This document shows positions 18,549-53,386 of a stretch of 64,000 nucleotides of DNA, in pieces. Every line of letters begins with the position of its first letter. Position 1 is the first letter of the stretch. Both the position numbers and the translations under genes were made by a program. The DNA is from Rhodamnia argentea (taxonomy: Eukaryota > Streptophyta > Magnoliopsida > Myrtales > Myrtaceae): contig NC_063156.1 of NCBI RefSeq assembly GCF_020921035.1, positions 12,474,501-12,538,500 of the forward strand, read 5' to 3'. Below the pieces are notes generated by a model. That model was not told the origin of the DNA and did no database searches. It saw only the letters and a list, made by a program, of their open reading frames with translations.

Positions 18549-19112
18549 TCAATCTCTCCTACTTGCGAGCGGAACCACCTCCGCGAGCGGCGTCGAGAGC
18601 GGGGTCGGCAGAGGCGACATCCTGCACACCGGGCACGTAGGGTGCAGCTGCAGCCACGGGTCAATGCACTTCTGGTGAAACAAGTGGCCGCAGTCGGGCA
18701 ACACCCGGAGCATGTCGGCGCCCTTGTAATCCGCCAAGCAGACCGTGCAGCAGCTCGCAGTTGAGCCCTTCTTCTCGAGCTTCGCCTCCGAGTAGAGCAG
18801 CTTCGGGTAGCCCGCGATGGTGGCCTCGTTGAGGCCCACCTCCATGATGACGGCTTGCTCCGGATCGGGCGGGGGCGTCCAGCGGTGGAGGTGCCGCACC
18901 CTCTGGTTGGCGGCGAAGGGTAAGGAGGAGGCCGTCATCGTCTGGAGGTTCCGGGTGCAGAAGTAAGAGGCTAGGGTTATGGTGGTGATGAGGAGGAGGA
19001 TCCCGACGGAGACCCCAATGCCGTAGCCAAGGCCCCCGATGTTGTTGCCGCTGAGGAACCCGCCTGAGCCGGTGGTGGTTGCGTTCATCTCCCCAAGCGG
19101 CCCGCGATTCAA
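18549..19112 (-). CDS. ATL-type RING-H2 E3 ubiquitin ligase
   Basis: Intronless, 187 residues, as usual for the ATL family. One transmembrane segment lies at about residues 30-50 (YGIGVSVGILLLITTITLAS). A GLD-like motif follows (GLNEATIAGYPKLLYSEAK, 93-111), with N in place of D. The RING-H2 finger spans residues 122-163: C122, C125, C141, H143, H146, C149, C160 and C163, with the canonical C-x2-C-x15-C-x-H-x2-H-x2-C-x10-C-x2-C spacing and the ATL-typical DPW before the last pair (DPWLQLHPTCPVC). It would sit in a membrane and recruit an E2 enzyme to ubiquitinate unknown targets. It resembles the short ATL66/ATL67 type. A second Met at residue 9 (coordinate 19088) is an alternative start. It is GC-rich compared with its surroundings, as intronless ATL genes often are. 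Confidence 0.9.
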   Translation of the reverse strand: MNRGPLGEMNATTTGSGGFLSGNNIGGLGYGIGVSVGILLLITTITLASYFCTRNLQTMTASSLPFAANQRVRHLHRWTPPPDPEQAVIMEVGLNEATIAGYPKLLYSEAKLEKKGSTASCCTVCLADYKGADMLRVLPDCGHLFHQKCIDPWLQLHPTCPVCRMSPLPTPLSTPLAEVVPLASRRD

Positions 19113-20435
19113 CGGTCAATATGGTGGTGAGATCGGCTTGAAGGGGGGTGTATGTCAGCCATGGCCACGGCACAAAGCAAGGGGCCTTTGCTTGGGAGAT
19201 TAAGAATTCGAAAGTCAATGGTATGAACACGTAATGATGGAGATTGGATTGGGGCAAATGCGTATGAATTCAAAAATGTCAAAAGTCTAGTTGCTTCGAA
19301 AGAAGTACTTTGTGAATAGAAAACGAAGATCAGTTAGGTTTTTCTCCTTTGGTACGTCAACGCTTTTTGGCCTCCATGTGGGGTTGCGCCTGCAAAGCCT
19401 TTTCTTTATTGCACGAACTTGGGATATACATACAGAAAAATTAGAGTGATTATCATTAGATATGTCAATTTGAAGTTTCAGAATCTCTCAGCAGCTTTTC
19501 CTCCCAGTACATGGCCGGGATCGACCAAGGGTTGAGCTGGACACCGCCGCCGATGGAGGAGCTCGACCGGATCTTGATCAAGGTCGACCGGAGTTAGGTC
19601 GAGCTCAATGTCCGCCGCTAGAGCTCGATCAAATCTACGTCTAACCACAGATTGTCATGGACGGTACAATCCCAATCGTACATCTACGTATTATCAGCGC
19701 GTGTTTTGTTTAAAACGCTAATTGATTGAGAAATCGTGTAAGCGAAATAATTCACAATACTTGTCAGACTAGCTACTTTCTTCTCGAAAAATTAAAGATG
19801 CTATAATAATCCAAGAAAGAAAGTGAGAAAGGCAAAACATCAGACGACGATGAAAGGGTACCTACTACTTTGATCAACTCATTACTTGCAAGTGTTGTTT
19901 TTGTTATTAAAAGGTTACGTGCACGTTATTACAGCTCGTGCATGGCCGCTTCTAGCAAACGGCGACACGAATATGCCCCGTCGTGATGTGGTTTGGCGTC
20001 GAGTTTGGAGCCACTTGGTGCTGCACCTTCTTGCTTCTTCTTGCTTTTCCTGGGGCTTGTTAGGTTTCTTTATCATAGAATTTAACGACTGCGTCAAGGC
20101 TGCAAAATCACGTGATTCAAGAAGATTTATTATGCTCCGAAGATGTTAGTAGAATCGAGAAACTATTGACTGTGTTGCAACATGGCGAGGCTCTTTTTTT
20201 AATAGTGTAATTAATGCATCACGTGCATTCATCTAACAATTTAAGCTTTTAGCAAGGATCTCACATTTTTAATTTGCTTGTGCAGAGCCGACATAGTATA
20301 TCGAAAGCTGTTTCATCAATTATCCTTCTATACATCTTGTTTTTCTTTTCGGAGTTGCTTGGCATTGATGACGCAAAGGTCGGCAGGGGATAAAAGTGCT
20401 AAGAAAGTCAGTGGAGACATGGCTTTATCTAGTGG
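19113..20435. other. Spacer, includes promoter side of the ATL gene
   Basis: No gene recognised. A short GC-rich patch at 19500-19620 (GATCGACC, GAGCTCGACCGG motifs) resembles transposon filler seen elsewhere in the window. Confidence 0.4.
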
Positions 20436-20440
20436 AAGAT

Positions 20441-20804
20441 TGTTGGGTTCCATAAAGGGTTACGGTGGTCCGTCCATGTAGACTACGACAATCCCCCACT
20501 CACTATAGATAACTGTAGAGGCAGTTAGTTTTGAAACATGGGTTATCACTCTTGAAACAACGTAAATCCTCCCCTATTCATTCTGTACTGGCAGAAAATA
20601 GAGAAAAACGAATGACGCTCTCATCTCTATCATCAAACCACAATCGAAGCAAGAGAATTCTCGAGACGGCATAGGCAACATCTAATCTATGGACAATACG
20701 GTACGTTCCTCGCGTCATGTATTGTCCGATCAGCGATAGAAATTAGGTTTAGGCGTATTCTTCCGCACGTTTATTGCTTATAATCAAGGATTAAGTATCA
20801 TTCA
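20441..20804 (+). repeat. LTR 1 of the tandem TRIM-like element
   Basis: First LTR copy, TG...CA ends, preceded directly by AAGAT. The signature GTAGACTAC near the start recurs in all three copies. Confidence 0.75.
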
Positions 20805-20915
20805 ATGGTATCGGAACCAATAATTTGTTTTCCCGATCATACGTACACTAATTGAATCATTTTCACCATGTTCGACATTGTTGTTAGAAGTGTTCTTCGT
20901 TTTTTGGTATGAACA

Positions 20916-21309
20916 TGTTGGGCTCCATGGGGGGTTACAGTCGTCCACCCATGTAGACTACCGCATCCCCCTCACTCATTTTTTATAAGTACATAGGTAG
21001 TTATCACTTGAATTAGTTTTGAAACGTGGGTTATCACCCTTGAAATAACCTAACTATTCCCCTATTCATTCTGCCCGTAAGAAATTAACAGAAAGTAGAG
21101 AAAAACGAAAAACGAACGACGCTCTCCCATTCTACTGTTGAACCGCAATCAAAGCAAGGGAACTCTCGAGATTGCATAGGTGATATCTAATATGTAGGCA
21201 ATACGGTACGTCCCTCGTGTGATGTATCATCCGATCGTTGATAGAAATTAGGTTTAGGCATGTTTTTTTGCACATTTATTGTTTAGAATTAAGGATTAAG
21301 TATCCTTCA
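20916..21309 (+). repeat. LTR 2 of the tandem TRIM-like element
   Basis: Middle LTR copy, shared by both units of the tandem. It is about 25-30 bp longer than the other two, from indels in the middle third. Confidence 0.75.
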
Positions 21310-21420
21310 ATGGTATCGTAGCTAATAATTTGTTTTCTTGATCATACATACACTAATTGAATCGTTTTTGCCATGTTCGACATTGTTGTTAGAAGTGTTC
21401 TTCGTTTTTCGATACGGACA

Positions 21421-21789
21421 TGTTGGGTTCCATGGGGGGTTACGGTGGCCTGCCCATATAGACTACCGCATCCCCCCATTCATTGTTGATAAGTGCAAAG
21501 GGAGTTATTACTTGAATTACTTTTGAAATGTGAGTTATCACCCTTGAAACAATGTAACTTCTCCCCTATTCATTCTACCAGTAAGAAACTAACAGAAAAG
21601 AGAGAAAAACGAACCGTGCTCTCATTGGAATAGAAGCAAGGGAACTCTCGAAATGCAAAGTTGACATCTAATCAGTGGACAATATAGTATGTCCCTTGTA
21701 TGATGCATCATCCGATCGGTGATACAAGTTAGGTTTGGGCATGTTTTTTTGCACGTTTATTGTTTAGAATCAAGGATTTAGCATCTTCA
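21421..21789 (+). repeat. LTR 3 of the tandem TRIM-like element
   Basis: Last LTR copy, followed directly by AAGAT rather than by a primer-binding site, so it is the terminal LTR. Confidence 0.75.
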
Positions 21790-21794
21790 AAGAT

Positions 21795-22707
21795 AAAGGG
21801 GAAAGATGAAACAACGGAAAGAAAATCAATCCCAATCATTAAAGATCATAATTGTAAATACGTCAAAATCTCACATAGATGAGATTTTTTTTTGATCGAA
21901 TCACATAGATGAGTTGAGCAAGTCAAATTTCCTCTTCACTTTGAAACTTTATATATTCAATACGAAATGTACCACCCTCAATTTAACTTTCAATATTTCG
22001 TTTGTTTCACTGAAAATATTTTCCGCGATAACATTTTTCTCATTTTGTTTGGATCACTTAGGAAAATGGATCAATTGAAATCCTATTCCTACATTTAGGA
22101 AAATGATTTCCTCTTTAAAAAATTGAAAATCATTTTTCAAAATATGACTCAATAACAATGTTGGATCGGAAACTCTACACTTGGGCATAGACGCTCATTT
22201 CTAGGTCCTTGGCACCGAGGTCCATGGAGGCCGGGCACGGTATCACGTGCCGATGCTCGAGTCTACAGATTTCAGCCAAATATTGAAAATATTACCATTT
22301 TCCTTTCCAAGCGATGAAAAATTCCTGTTATTTTTTTAGTCAAATATCGAAGAATGTTACTATTTTTTATGCATTTTCACATGTAATATTTTTCAGAATT
22401 GTAACATTATGGGAAACAAACGGATGTAATTCTTCATGGTCTTCGAAGAGAATGATGTATTGTTGTCTAGGAGTCCTCAATCCTCGTACCGGGCCAGAGT
22501 CAGTGAAATATGGGCCTGTACGGCCCAAATGCAGGCCCACCTTGGTTCGACCGCCGTCGTCTTCTCCATCGTAGGTTTTCACTTCCTGACAAGACCAGAC
22601 CAGACCAAAGTAGGACAACAAAGACATAGAAACTCGCAGGATTATCGTTGACTTCGGCCGAAAGCGAAGTGAAACCCAGCCGTCGTCCCGCCAAGCTCCG
22701 ACCGACC
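21795..22707. other. Spacer and promoter of the Expp1-like gene
   Basis: AT-rich, with fragments of the dispersed GAAAATATTTTCC-type repeat at 22005-22140. The last 200 bases are GC-richer and probably contain the promoter and leader of the gene at 22708. Confidence 0.4.
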
Positions 22708-33252: not shown

Positions 33253-33978
33253 TAGGGGCGAGCATGGTCCGATTCCTTCAATAATCGGGGACTGGATTAC
33301 CAATCCGATCTGATTCTCGGGTGGTCCGTATTGGAATAAATAAATATGTATTAAACCATGCCTTCTTCTATCGCCTTAAGCTTTTAGAACAGTTGGCGGT
33401 GGTCTCATAAAATTTTTCAATTCAATGGAATCGATAAAATAAAAATAAAAAGTAAAATGAAAACAAAAATAAGAAATCCGAGTTTTTTTGTTTTTTGCTG
33501 ACCTTTCTTCGCGGGTTCGTGCATACATAGAGATCCTTGTGGAAGAAGGAAGAGGGAGAGGAAGAAGATGACTCCAGCGAATTTGACAGGGCAGTTCGGG
33601 GACGCCATGTACACGAAGGTGTTTGTGGGAGGGCTAGCTTGGGACACTCAGAAGGACAAAGCTGTAATTCTAGATAGCAATATACATCTATGCATACCAA
33701 TTGTCCTCATAAAATCACTAAAATTGGCTCCCACAAGCACCCCTACTGAAAAGTCATCATCTTCATCATATAAATTTTTTTATAAAAGTTTGTCTATATG
33801 GGTGGACAGTCCATCAATCCGGTTCCCCACTAGAAATTGAAATCGGACCGCCCAGGCAGCGGTTCTATCTTGAAGAACCTGGGACCGGACCGATGACTTT
33901 TAGAATCAAACCAAACCCCGTCGATCCGGTCCGGTCCTATTGGTTCCAGATCCGGTTGATCCATCTTGCTTACCCCTA
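33253..33978. mobile_element. hAT-like element carrying a host exon
   Basis: The left end TAGGGGCGAGCATGGTCCG and the right end, reverse-complemented, TAGGGGTAAGCAAGATGGAT share TAGGGG.RAGCA. Subterminal CCGGTCC and GGACCGG motifs abound. The flanks TCGGATGA (33245-33252) and TTAGATGG (33979-33986) match at 5 of 8 positions, all differences being transitions, as expected for an old methylated hAT duplication. The related element at 36066-36509 has the same ends. Unlike that copy, this one contains the first exon of an RNA-binding protein gene. Confidence 0.6.
33568..33660 (+). pseudogene. First-exon fragment of an RRM RNA-binding protein gene
   Basis: Starts MTPANLTGQFGDAMYTKVFV and GGLAWDTQKDK, the N-terminus and RNP2 motif (KVFVGGL) of a small single-RRM protein (RBM24/38-like in plant annotations). 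It is preceded by GAAGAGGGAGAGGAAGAAG, which resembles a native 5' leader. The similarity ends at about 33660, and the rest of the RRM, including RNP1, is absent. It lies wholly inside the hAT-like element 33253-33978, so it was probably captured. It cannot make an RNA-binding domain. Confidence 0.75.
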
Positions 33979-43500: not shown

Positions 43501-46500
43501 AAGATCAAGCCTAGTATAATCCACATCATGATTCGGACAACCCATAGAACTATCATTTGAAGCATGGGACAAGTGCTCGACCCCCATCCCAATACACATA
43601 AATCAAGACAATTTACAATATGCAGCAAGTAGAGAACATTTGGAACTTCTCAACTCCATGTTGAAGTGTCTTGATGCTTTTCCGACGTAACACCTTTGAG
43701 TTACTTGCAATATTCCTTAGTTTTCACTCTCAAATCTCCAAACTTAGAAGCTGTCTTTGCTACAACCAACTTTTTTTTTATGGCAACATATGCATACAAT
43801 TGCCACTCTACTCAGTCACCTCTACCGATCACCTCGAAGTTTCATCAATTGTGACCATGAAACAACTATCGGCTCCTATGGAATTTAATGACTTTAAAGA
43901 TACTATTACATCTATTGCCCTCTGAGCATATCCGGACTCTCCCAAAGGCTCTACTTATATCTGAATATTACCTAGATTTTTCTTTGTAAGCAATCCATTA
44001 TATCCCTTTTGAAATAGAGCAAATTTCTCAAAGAAACATCTCTACGGAACATAAACTCAAGTGAATCTACCTTAGTGCACCATAGCCTGTGTCACTTCAT
44101 ATCATGTGCACAACCTAGAAATATGCAATTCTTTGCTCTTGGCTCCATCGCACAATTACTCACACGAGCTTATGCAAGGCAATTAAACAACCTCGATCGG
44201 GTATATTCACTACTTCGGCCTATATATCTTCGCTTAATCTAGCATTGGAGAGTAAAGAGCGAGCTCCCTCCAATATAATCTCCTTCATCAATTCTACACC
44301 TCCATTTAGCTACAAGGAGTGTTAGCAATAGTACAATGTTTCATTATGCCTTTCTCTATGCAAAATTAGCAAAGCTCATATGAACTTAACTCCAACCCTT
44401 TATCAATTCTTAAGTACATGATCTTCCTTCTTATCTCCCTTTTCATTTTCGCCTTCCTCACCTTGAACCCACCATGCACCTCATTCTTGTGATTTAGAAG
44501 ACAAATTCAAATGCTTCCCGAAGCATCATCAATAAAGGACAATATATTTGGCACCACCCTTTGACAGAACTTGAGGGTTCCCATAAGTTTGAGTGTACGC
44601 CATGTAATCTCTGAGTATCTATGAATTGATGTACTAAACTTCGCTATAGACTAACTACCAATATCGCAGTGTCCACCGAGGTGCGGTTTCTCGGTTCGGT
44701 GACCTTCGAATAGACCCTTTTGACTCAAAACCATCATTTGCCTATCACTTATGTGTTTGAGACTCATGTGCCACAAGTGCATCGTGTTTTGACCTGAAGC
44801 CTTAGAGAATCTAGCGGTTGAGTTAATCACTGGCGTTCCTTAGAGGAGATACAACCGACGATTTATGTTCTTTCACATCACAATAAGCACACCTTGAGAG
44901 TCAAGACCTTATTTTCAGAAAAGATTTGATATCCAAACCCATCAACGGAATAACGTGATAAGGTTCTTTCTCGGCTCCAATACATGCCTTACATCGGTTA
45001 ATGTTATCAACACTCCATAGTACACCTTAGTTTGAGCTATCCCAATCTCTAAACCCAAGCAGCACTATTTACTTAAACACTCTACTACCCTTATGCATTG
45101 ATAGATAGTAACCCTAGGTCTATGAAAAGTCATATGATAAGGACAACTAGAGTCAAACACCCAATCATCACCTAATGAACTCGTGAGATTGCTTACACAT
45201 AATCAACATACCTAAAACATTAAATAGTAGAAATGCAACCATTGCCTGCAGACTCCAACTTAGCTCATTCACCCTTGTACTTTGAACAATCTATTCATTA
45301 GTGTCCCATCAACAGTTCTGAATGTTGGACCTCGATTTAGAACGGCTTTTTTGTTCGCCACCGCAACCCTCTATGTTCATCTTTATCTCGAAACCTTAAC
45401 CTTAGCTCTGATCTTGTTGGAATATAATTTTGATTTTAAAGAATGTTTTTTTTCTCTATTATTATTCTTGAAATATTGCACAAAATCAAGCCAAGAATCA
45501 GCCCAAACGGGTTTCTTGTGGAGGTATCGAGACGGTGAATGCCGTCGGCACCTTGATCGCGATTAACACCCTCGTGCTGGTCATCTACATACCCTTCGTC
45601 GTAAATGCCATCCTTAACTCCACGAAGATCTTTGACCACCTAGACTAATGAAAAAGATTACTATGAGGGTAAAAAACAAGTCTTTGTTCTCTATCTAGTT
45701 CACCGAGGACTCAAGCTAGCCGATCTTGGCATTTTGTAGTTGAATTATGTTCTTCTATACTTTAAGAAGATTTGATGGGACCACAACCAATTACTCTAAA
45801 AACTTAAGCTTATAGAAGAAGGTGTGATTTAATATGTCTATATTCCAACACTCCCCCTTACGCTTAGTCCGGTCTTTTGCCTAGTACTAAGCGTGGATAT
45901 ATAAATTAGGGAGGCAAATAGGGCCTTGAAAAGTGTGAATTCGGGATCTTCTGCTATGATATAATGAAAGATTTGATGAGACCACAGCCAATTACTTTAA
46001 AAGCTTAAGCTTATAGAAGAAGCCGTGATTTAATATGTCTATATTCCAACGGATACCAACTGTTATGAAACAACGCGAAACTTATGGATGATATAATCGA
46101 AGTCTAACGCGAAAAGAGCAAATTACCAGAGAAACCAACAATGAATGATAAGAATACTAGAGATTTATGTGATTGTTTCGAAAGTTGGTACCTACACTCT
46201 GTGGAGAGCCAACCATCAAGAAATTCATTTCGAATTTGGAGAATACAGAGTTTACATTCGCTTAATCACTCAAGTGTTTTCGTAACCCTATTTACTCCCA
46301 AAGAAAGTGTTATTTCACAATATCTGGCAACGTACTCACTCTAAAAATTGATGAACACTAAACACTCTTGCTTTCTTGAGTGTGTAATAACCCAACAGAA
46401 ATATATTTTTCATATGTTCGTATGTGACTTTATATCTCAAATTGAAAAAAAAATACTCGATTTTCTTTCTTTTTATCTTCAATCCGAGATCGGACTCCAC

Positions 46501-49704: not shown

Positions 49705-51205
49705 TCAAGCTGGAGGTGGAGGCGATAGCGCTGGTGCTGGTTGGCTGCTGCTGCCGCTGCTATTTTTTTGCCATGGCTTCACGGTAAACAGCACCACAAA
49801 CAAAACTATCACTAGCAAAATTATGATGGCATAACATGTCCATTTCCGCGTGTTCTTCTGATACTTCCTAGCGGTCTGCAAGCGCTCGGTCCCGCCTCGC
49901 ACGAATGAGTTGGCTCTCCCCACCTGGCTCTCGATGTCGTCCAGCTGCTCGCCCTGAGACTGCACCAGCACGGCCATGTCCAAGAACACCTGGTGCAGCT
50001 CCTTAAGATTCTTCTCCATGTCCTTGACGGCATCATGCCTCTCCTGGATTTCCTGTATCGTGTCCAAGACACTCCCTCTGCCCTGTTCCTGAATGGCCTT
50101 CTGCAAGAAGGTCTCGCTCTCGCCTGCGTAAGAATCAGAGATGCGTAAGAATTACAATGATGAAGCTCAAATACTGTCCTGCATTACAAAGGAAACGGAG
50201 ATAGTGAATAACAGAGTAGCTCCTCTGCCTTGATTTTCATGATTCTTCACTGCAGAAATTATTCTAAGTCCCTACATTGTGTGAGTTCTAAAGTGCACAA
50301 AGAGCCGTGGTTGATCCTCAAAACAGAACAGAATGACATTGTTCCACAAGCAACTTACAAACAGCAATCAAAATGCTAGATATACCCAATTCCAGTTCCC
50401 GATTCGACGGCTTCCAATTTAGCAACACCACCAATCTCATGCCAAAACTCAATTTCGGAAATGGTTAATTTGTCCCCAATTTCGTATACATTCTCAAATC
50501 TGCACTGCGTTTGGCTTTTCTTGAACAGCACGTGTATGCTCGAGGCAAGCTCAAACATGGAAGCGCGATCCTTTCGCGATATTGGCATACCTAGTGTCGT
50601 AGTATATTGTAAAATTTACCTGTTGAGATCAACAGATCGAGCGTCCTATCATCAGGGTTCTCGCCGGTGACGGTGAAGTACCTCCGCTGGACGGTCTCCC
50701 TGTACTCCGACGAGATCTGCTGCCTCAGGACGTTGAAGCTCTCCATCGAGTCCTGCAGCTTCTTCCTCAGCCCGTTGACCAGGGAGGTCCGGGTCCGGTC
50801 CGACGAGGATCCCGGCCCGCAGCCTGGGAGGCTCCGGTTGGCGGCGTTGGACCGGTCGAGGGCCTCGAGGCGGACCTTGACGACCTTGGCCTTCTTGAGG
50901 GCGGCCGTGACGTCGGCGTCCATGCGCGACCTGAGATCCTTCACGGCCCTCGCGTTGTGCAGCGTCTTGCTCTGCTCGTGCGACGACTGGAGCCTCTGGC
51001 GGAGCGACTCCAGCTCCTTCAGCTCCTCCTTGATGGACTCCACGTCCTCGAAGAACTTGTCCAGGTTGACCCCGCCGGAAGCCGCGGCCGCCGTCGTCGC
51101 CTCCGCAGCAGCCATCTCGACGTCGTAGCGGCGGTCGGAGGCGGCCCTGGGCGGCGACCGGTCGCCGCGGAAGCGGGAGAAGGAGCCGGAGAAGAGGTCG
51201 TTCAT
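49705..51205 (-). CDS. SYP121-like syntaxin (plasma-membrane Qa-SNARE)
   Basis: Two exons, 51205-50620 and 50123-49705, giving 334 residues with a phase-1 GT-AG intron. It starts [12 protein letters not shown]. The FxRF motif at residues 9-12 (FSRF) is the one by which SYP121 contacts K+ channel subunits. The Habc region follows ([40 protein letters not shown]), then [20 protein letters not shown] and [20 protein letters not shown]. The SNARE helix is about residues 224-283 with the ionic-layer Gln at about 252 (SQGEQL), then a C-terminal membrane anchor (about 292-310) and a short Ser/Pro tail. It drives secretory vesicle fusion at the plasma membrane and, in relatives, contributes to penetration resistance against fungi. 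The upstream in-frame Met (51292) is unlikely, because MNDLF is the family start. Confidence 0.93.
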
Positions 51206-53386
51206 GGCTGGCGGGTGGTGCGGCGTTCCGGGTCGCTCTCGACGGGCAACGAATTGGGATTTCGCGCGTTGATTGACGGAACGAATTGACAAGCGAAGGT
51301 TCGTCGTGTTCCTGTGAAAACTCTTGGATGTTATAAGCGTGGGTGTTGCAAGATCTCTCTCTCTCGAGAGAAGATATACGACGAGAAGTCAATGAGAAGT
51401 GGGGTGGGGACAGGTGGCGAGGAGCTTTCTTGGCGGAGTAAAATTTTTCCGGGGAAAAGGGAGAGGGGAAGGGAAGATTCCGGGAAAAGGCGAGGGCGGC
51501 GAGAATCCGAGTGGGAAAGCGCGTGGGGGCTGGGGGTGATGCGCGGGGGCCTTGTCAATGTCAACCGTTTAGTGAAGTGAAGACGACGAAGAAGAGACCT
51601 GGTCTGATCCGGGGTTTCGGACTTATCTCCGATACTTCTTCTGAATGTCCTTATGCACGTGCGAAGGCTCACGTGGAATGCCCTCGTCTCACTTTGGATG
51701 CTATTACACGAAAACACTTGCAAAATGGTATGGAAATAATCGAAATTCATATATATCCACACTTTGATATTAAAAAGAAGGTCGGGGTCGATCTCGAGAC
51801 GTGGCGGATCAAAATCTCGGAACACGACATTCAAATCACGACTCACGGTTAGATCTGATTACGAGGTGGAACGGAACCACTCGTGCCTCAAGGGCCGGAG
51901 ACTATTTTAGACGAGGCCCGAATAAGGGTCTCTAGTTACGAGGACTCACGTGAATGGGTTTGAGCCACGCCTAGCCCGCAAAACCCACCAGCTGTACAAA
52001 AATAACGAGTTAGACTCAAGTTAAGGGTCAATCCAAAATGACCTCCCGTAGATTATGAGTGAGCATGGTTTCAAAATAAAATTGAGAACCGGAGAACGGG
52101 ATCGGTGGGAACCTATCCGGTTCCAGGTTTTGAGGTATGTAGGGTAGGTTTCGGGTTTTAAATATTAGTGAATCAATTCCGACGGACGGGATCTAGATTC
52201 TTGGAACCCGTCTTTGTGTTTTTCTTATTTTATATTTTCATGCAAGCATACGGTATTCCATGGTATGATATTAAGTGCGTACTCTGGAATCATTAATATA
52301 AGTTTCCATTTTTGGTGACATTCATGATCGAGACTTTTATTTTGGCAATGTTTCATACTCTTCATATGACTAAATATCAATTGTGGTCGATAGATTATAA
52401 CAGCAAATTGTAATCATTACAAGTGATGATTCACCGCAATCGCTCAATTAAGAATACGGGTGGAACTTGAGTAGACCTTAGAACAGATATTGAAATCTAC
52501 GACAGTGTAGATTCTAAGTTCCGGGATATGCATAGTAAATTTCAGGTTTCAAAAATTGAAGAACCGATTCTAACGCAATAGCCTATCAAGAACAACAAAC
52601 ACTAAGAAATCAAGCAATTCGAGATCTTCGAACGACATTACGCACCTAATTGAGTCATGCTTCTTGATTCGCGGGGTTTGGTCCGAACGAAACCAGCAAA
52701 GCTGATACGAGACCCAATATGATTCACACATTGTCCTCTATAATGTTTGGTTTTTGGCAGGTACAAAACTATAAAAGCAATTGATGGTAGCCGACCAACT
52801 TTAGAACATTTCTAATTGCATGCACTCTTGTGGGACATTTGGCAAATAGTTTGTGACCGAATTGTGTCGCAATATTAACTTAATCTCCACTGTGCCATCT
52901 AACATTACATTTATGGTCAAGACTTTCAAATTTGTTGCCCACCCTTCAAATGACTAAAGTACCCTTATTTTTAATGCAGAAGACTTTAGAAACCAAATTA
53001 GACGTCAATATTTCTAAAAGGTTGGCTAACAATTCTGACTTTCATGTTGCGCACCACACCTCTCACTTTCGAAATTTATATTATGTCCCATTTTCTTACG
53101 GAAAACAAACTGTATCTATGCAGGAGCATATAGCATACGAAGGGTCCACTATAATGAAAATGAAATCACGGGCATCATAACTTTTGTACAGTGCTCGCTT
53201 TAATGCCAAAACGTGCAATAAATTCCGGTAAACCGTCCTGTGTAACCTTTCTAGTAAATTTTAGTTCATATATGGCTTTCTTTGGACTGATTTTTTTTTT
53301 TTATTAAAGTCAACGAAAGGTCGGGTTCTTATTCATCTTCGTCTTCGTCTTCTTTGCCAAAGACCAAGGAACAAGGAACGCAACAC

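Follow-up and report, generated by a model that had tools for sequence, protein, structure and literature searches.

A three-LTR array that resembles a tandem miniature element seems to be derived, at this locus alone, from a long Ty1-copia element and not to represent a mobile miniature (TRIM) family. The array lies in C7:12474501-12538500, the stretch of 64,000 nucleotides that was analysed (the window), in an assembly of 346.66 Mb and 74 contigs. Our preferred reading, to which we give a probability of roughly 55%, is a long copia insertion that lost its interior via insertion of a sibling element and LTR recombination and later underwent an unequal crossover. Three-LTR tandems with intact outer duplications are already well documented in plants; what this locus adds is a three-LTR case whose core is a scrap of leader.

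Results

Structure of the array

Three LTRs alternating with two 111-bp segments had been proposed in the preliminary description, and this layout was recovered base-exactly at 20436-21794 as AAGAT, LTR1, 111 bp, LTR2, 111 bp, LTR3, AAGAT. The features are as follows.

20436..20440, + strand: left target site duplication (TSD) AAGAT, by direct reading; the 205-bp left flank matches its own place in the genome only
20441..20804, + strand: LTR1, outer 5' LTR, 364 bp, TG...CA
20805..20818, + strand: primer binding site (PBS)-like site after LTR1, 11/14 against the family PBS
20805..20915, + strand: internal piece 1, 111 bp, start of the copia family leader by alignment, without a polypurine tract (PPT)
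20915..20916, + strand: joint 1, where leader position 111 directly abuts base 1 of LTR2
20916..21309, + strand: LTR2, middle LTR, 394 bp, with fewer private changes than LTR1 or LTR3
21310..21323, + strand: PBS-like site after LTR2, 10/14 against the family PBS
21310..21420, + strand: internal piece 2, 111 bp, by alignment a second copy of the leader stretch in internal piece 1
21420..21421, + strand: joint 2, identical to joint 1
21421..21789, + strand: LTR3, outer 3' LTR, 369 bp, without a PBS after it
21790..21794, + strand: right TSD AAGAT, by direct reading; the 201-bp right flank matches its own place in the genome only

All three LTRs have the TGTTGGG start and the TTCA end that had been ascribed to them, and the two internal pieces align without gaps, 98 of 111 positions being identical. 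The PBS-like sequence ATGGTATC was scored against the family PBS TTGGTATCAGAGCC, a reading taken off the long copies. After LTR3 agreement drops to 5/14 and no PBS is present, in line with the earlier observation of a primer site after LTR1 and LTR2 only.

The perfect AAGAT flanks round the whole array were likewise confirmed. Given the base composition here, the chance of a 5/5 match at one fixed offset is about 0.0016. Further copies of AAGAT at 21803 and 21842, just beyond the right end in an AAGAT-rich flank, are a weak point of the TSD call. Nested insertions still intact as they landed were rejected on the single outer TSD and on the five bases on each side of LTR2, which form no repeat. 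No ORF of at least 120 aa overlaps the array, and Tandem Repeats Finder, with a longest period of 500, returned no row for it. Cassandra, which carries 5S rRNA-like sequence in its LTR, was dropped as a candidate, the window having no Rfam match at the gathering threshold.

The neighbours of the array are a RING-finger ORF at 18549-19115 (- strand) and an ORF from 22630 (+ strand) without a Pfam match. With each flank (about 200 bp) matching itself alone genome-wide, there was no sign of a paralogous empty site. No tRNA gene was reported by ARAGORN. Elsewhere the window contains an 83-bp direct repeat at 45767-45849 and 45968-46050 (93% identical, 201 bp apart), an inverted, diverged copy of it at 33339-33419, and, at 49705-51388 (- strand), two ORF pieces of a syntaxin-like gene with Syntaxin and SNARE domains.

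The parent Ty1-copia family

Searches of the genome DNA returned at least 25 matches for LTR1-internal, at least 43 for LTR2-internal-LTR3 (40 of 67 candidates scored), at least 5 for the joint and at least 3 for the internal piece, self included. The closest relative among the matches listed is a degenerate copy of about 10.7 kb at C3:20152273-20162946. It has CCTTA at both flanks, its own two LTRs are about 84% alike, and the LTRs of the window show 76-81% identity to both of them. Another full-length copy lies at C9:312704-320335, between AAGTT repeats (by eye). Five of six open pieces of two long copies (L031, L034) match Ty1-copia families in Pfam, namely Retrotran_gag_2, Pol_BBD, gag_pre-integrs, SH3_retrovirus and RVT_2, which represent gag, protease-region, integrase-associated and RT domains; the sixth has no Pfam match. 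The C3 copy gives a weak Pol_BBD match (E 4.5e-5, under the curated cut-off), and a second piece of it has no Pfam match. Nine LTRs with both ends visible have neither a PPT before nor a PBS after them. Perfect 5-bp repeats were seen by eye around five of these (CTCAG, TTGTT, GTTGG, AATAG and CTTAC; TTGTT lies within a repetitive stretch) and are absent from the other four. The array LTRs thus belong to a long Ty1-copia family that is present both as full-length copies and as solo LTRs. Two-LTR and solo copies with different TSDs, which the preliminary description had named as the means to establish the family, do exist, but the family that they establish is the long copia one. Their flanks as read by eye (those of the two full-length copies and, TTGTT apart, of the stand-alone LTRs) also uphold AAGAT as a target duplication and not a part of the repeat.

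Long copies carry TTGGTATCAGAGCC, or a sequence close to it, after the LTR, and the leader comes next; upstream of the family's 3' LTRs stands GGGCGAGTGGGAGA or a variant. The PPT pattern GTGGGAGA flags 11 of the 38 listed LTR left ends, one of the 38 being an artefact inside an LTR; one more variant (L034) was recognised by eye. LTR ends, LTR homology, PBS, leader start and 5-bp TSDs are common to the array and the long copies (C3:20152273-20162946, C9:312704-320335 and others). The long copies, however, hold coding remnants and a PPT before the 3' LTR, whereas the array is LTR and leader throughout. Its lack of gag-pol and PPT is as expected for a deletion derivative.

Two side observations concern the family at large. 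Upstream of the 3' LTR in L019, L024, L028, L042, L056 and L063 the PPT ends two or more similar units, such as GTGGGCAAGTGGGAGATGTTTGCCCTTCATGGGTGAGTGGGAGA in L019, and the PPT region looks like a short repeat array. At C2:12556-12559 kb (L031, L015), two tandem LTR-leader segments of the same copia family lie about 2.5 kb apart; beyond them come gag-pol pieces and an LTR with a PPT before it (L051). This double LTR was considered as a possible intermediate and set aside, since homology upstream of both LTRs marks a segmental duplication with no bearing on the array.

The internal segment and its joint

Positions 2-111 of the 111-bp piece align with the leaders of C8:8746 (76%) and C6:13386 (70%), both of which run on beyond the point where the window enters an LTR; other family copies match the piece in part or not at all. 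The bases before LTR2 and LTR3, GTATGAACA and GATACGGACA, are leader. Neither internal piece contains a PPT motif, the longest purine run being 5 bases, and at none of the 38 listed LTR left ends (by eye) does a leader end stand before an LTR elsewhere. Among the matches listed, the joint query matches end to end at the two joints of the array locus only. Its three non-self matches among those listed all begin or end at the joint or one base from it, and none crosses it. The LTR1-internal and LTR2-internal-LTR3 searches gave, among the matches listed, no non-self crossing of more than about 5 bases (by eye), and the same internal-LTR joint with other TSDs was not found outside the locus among those matches.

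On these results we do not maintain the claim of a miniature LTR element that forms a separate family: the 111 bp are the start of a long Ty1-copia leader, without a PPT, and the joint was found here only among the matches listed. A true TRIM family whose remaining copies were lost or diverged too far for detection would fit a two-LTR unit of less than 1 kb with a PBS, no coding sequence and a 5-bp TSD, and tandem TRIMs are common according to excerpts of PMC4717578. However, a unit with PBS and leader and no PPT could hardly make normal plus-strand ends, so that movement as a miniature is unlikely. On the absent PPT, and with no sister copy found among the matches listed, a TRIM family was ruled out as a candidate, and we regard it as highly improbable. 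The array is a relic and probably has no function of its own, since it has no long ORF and no PPT and no other copy was found among the matches listed.

The joint is identical in both units and therefore predates the duplication. It falls on the exact first base of the LTR, which is what an integrated or a cDNA LTR end gives. We think that insertion of a sibling element is the commonest route to an LTR-end joint inside a leader; the exact joint is what speaks for this step, since no sibling remnant survives. A chance deletion that removed everything between leader position 111 and the LTR, with unequal crossing over afterwards, would leave an identical product but seems very unlikely to us. 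Deletions are common in old elements, and the two deletion ends have one base (A) in common (by eye), but the deletion would have to hit the LTR's very first base, or the base next to it, by chance within an element of about 7 kb.

An accident at the cDNA level may also be envisaged, in which an LTR end was joined into the leader of the same or a sister cDNA, by autointegration or an end-to-end template jump, and the resulting unit or circle integrated and rearranged. Ty1 autointegration exists. Such an accident would give the exact LTR terminus at the joint and the loss of the PPT, and one-LTR retrotransposon circles are reported in tomato (excerpt of PMC11044480). It is nevertheless inseparable from nested insertion with LTR recombination, which requires common genomic events only, and it still requires a route to proper outer ends; we consider it distinctly unlikely. 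That the joint is an autointegration fossil, a cDNA LTR end having attacked leader position 111 so that a PPT-less LTR-leader circle or chimera entered the chromosome and gave the tandem, is less probable still.

Divergence among LTRs and internal pieces

In pairwise alignments, p-distances are 0.188 for LTR1/LTR2, 0.210 for LTR1/LTR3, 0.144 for LTR2/LTR3 and 0.117 for the internal pieces. In the 348 columns filled in all three LTRs, the pairwise comparison that the preliminary description had called for finds the neighbours LTR2/LTR3 closest (57 differences), followed by LTR1/LTR2 (64), with LTR1/LTR3 most distant (78). Private changes in these columns number 40 in LTR1, 19 in LTR2 and 33 in LTR3 (equal-rates chi2 p 0.024; LTR1 against LTR2 p 0.0086; LTR3 against LTR2 p 0.07; all without correction for multiple testing). 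The larger indels between the LTRs were not counted as support, each being apparently private to one LTR in comparison with the C3 LTRs. The distances among LTR1, LTR2, LTR3 and the C3 LTRs are all nearly equal, and the data neither demonstrate nor reject LTR1-3 as a clade (AU p 0.246).

A multiple alignment was used for the internal pieces, and pairwise identities with free end gaps were discarded as distorted. The rate of LTR2 predicts an internal divergence of 0.109, and 0.117 is observed. The internal pieces are less different than LTR1/LTR3 (Fisher p 0.014, likewise uncorrected), and not significantly less different than LTR2/LTR3 (p 0.29) or LTR1/LTR2 (p 0.11). At substitution rates of 7e-9 to 1.3e-8 per site and year, K2P distances of 0.255 for LTR1/LTR3 and 0.132 for the internal pieces would correspond to roughly 10-18 and roughly 5-9 million years, both loose ages.

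An unequal crossover between the LTRs of one insertion should leave the TSD intact, make the outer LTRs the pair that parted first, give the middle LTR the fewest private changes and date the internal pieces to the duplication itself. In the array it is the outer LTRs that have diverged furthest, and LTR2 has the fewest private changes; this favours, short of proof, unequal exchange in the inserted element over a tandem that already existed at integration. The preliminary description had left both routes standing; with LTR1/LTR3 most distant, unequal exchange is now likely and the pre-integration tandem disfavoured. A tandem that arose when reverse transcription switched templates or copied a tandem transcript, and that integrated as a single unit with one TSD, would agree with the single intact outer TSD and the identical joints, and three-LTR cases with a TSD are published (PMC1950507; PMC11899658, the latter in excerpt). 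That route, however, makes outer LTRs alike (PMC1950507), whereas here they differ most, and the unit lacks a PPT to prime plus-strand synthesis. We therefore hold this origin to be unlikely, although a mosaic LTR2, which would exclude it, is not significant, as set out below.

The middle LTR

The sharpest prediction of the crossover is an LTR2 whose left part resembles LTR3 and whose right part resembles LTR1; the data give no more than a hint of it. Maximum-likelihood trees of ten LTRs group LTR2 with LTR3 in the left part (90/88), LTR1 with LTR2 in the right part (64/83) and LTR2 with LTR3 over the full length (80/89); the left and right groupings are in the direction that a crossover predicts. 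AU tests did not reject the alternatives (p 0.125 left, 0.317 right, 0.198 whole), and a permutation of polarised sites for a mosaic LTR2 was not significant under any of three outgroup rules (p 0.54, 0.38 and 0.16). There are conflicting sites at 350-354, and by raw distance the right part of LTR2 is nearer to LTR3 (25/157) than to LTR1 (30/159). In the count model, the gain in lnL over a star is 4.36 for the crossover, 2.73 for a reversed crossover and 5.01 for free rates per LTR without a mosaic, the last model having more parameters than the crossover model. The best crossover point, position 376, lies near the right end of LTR2 and differs from the split point of the trees. Unequal rates without a mosaic fit as well as a crossover.

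Discussion

Proposed origin

A long Ty1-copia element inserted at this locus and duplicated AAGAT, as family, LTR ends and TSD show. As the anatomy shows, its interior was then lost, and what stayed between the LTRs was the PBS with 111 bp of leader start, fused to the exact first base of an LTR. The exact joint is most readily explained by a sibling element that landed in the leader near position 111; one of its LTRs would then have recombined with the 3' LTR of the host element, deleting all between them, the PPT included. Later, in a step that the divergence pattern favours, the two LTRs of sister or homologous copies would have crossed over unequally and so doubled one LTR-leader unit; the product would be three LTRs and two leader pieces with untouched flanks. 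The locus has been decaying ever since.

Comparison with known systems

Comparisons with PMC4717578, PMC4528315, PMC11899658 and PMC7215508 are made against excerpts of these papers. A TRIM-like tandem anatomy need not mean a TRIM, and PPT and copy number are worth checking before a family is named. The array shows the TRIM features listed in PMC4717578, that is, terminal direct repeats, a short internal piece, a 4-6 bp TSD and no coding sequence. Where both PBS and PPT are demanded, as for Wukong (PMC4528315), it offers the PBS only. No title on PPT-less TRIMs or on tests of a middle LTR was found in the literature, as judged by titles.

In the tandemly arrayed TRIMs of Gao et al. 2016 (PMC4717578), the L3I2 type, 63 of 93 arrays in maize, likewise has three LTRs and two internal pieces, all facing the same way, within an outer TSD. 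Those arrays are formed by TRIM subfamilies, whereas the internal piece of the present one is the leader of a long element, without a PPT, found at one locus. Three LTRs with two internal pieces are also described for Cassandra (PMC7215508). Some Wukong arrays in maize have three or more LTRs and 5-bp TSDs and are ascribed to recombination (PMC4528315); unlike our array, the Wukong element is 532 bp long, counts 215 members and has both PBS and PPT in its internal domain.

Tandem LTR retrotransposons of rice and other plants (2025, PMC11899658) resemble the array in a shared middle LTR and a single TSD. They consist of LTR-retrotransposon copies, whereas the core here is a 111-bp leader piece. 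The authors leave open the choice between crossover and complex insertion, and with it the pre- or post-integration origin of three-LTR tandems. With the outer LTRs most diverged, LTR2 least changed and the TSD intact, the array is a small, non-decisive data point for the post-integration route. The template-switching complexes of Sabot and Schulman 2007 (PMC1950507) also combine three LTRs with an outer TSD. In that work outer LTRs made alike by reverse transcription, together with the TSD, serve as the criterion for pre-integration tandems; the complexes have highly similar outer LTRs and two complete cores, whereas the outer LTRs of our array are its most diverged pair.
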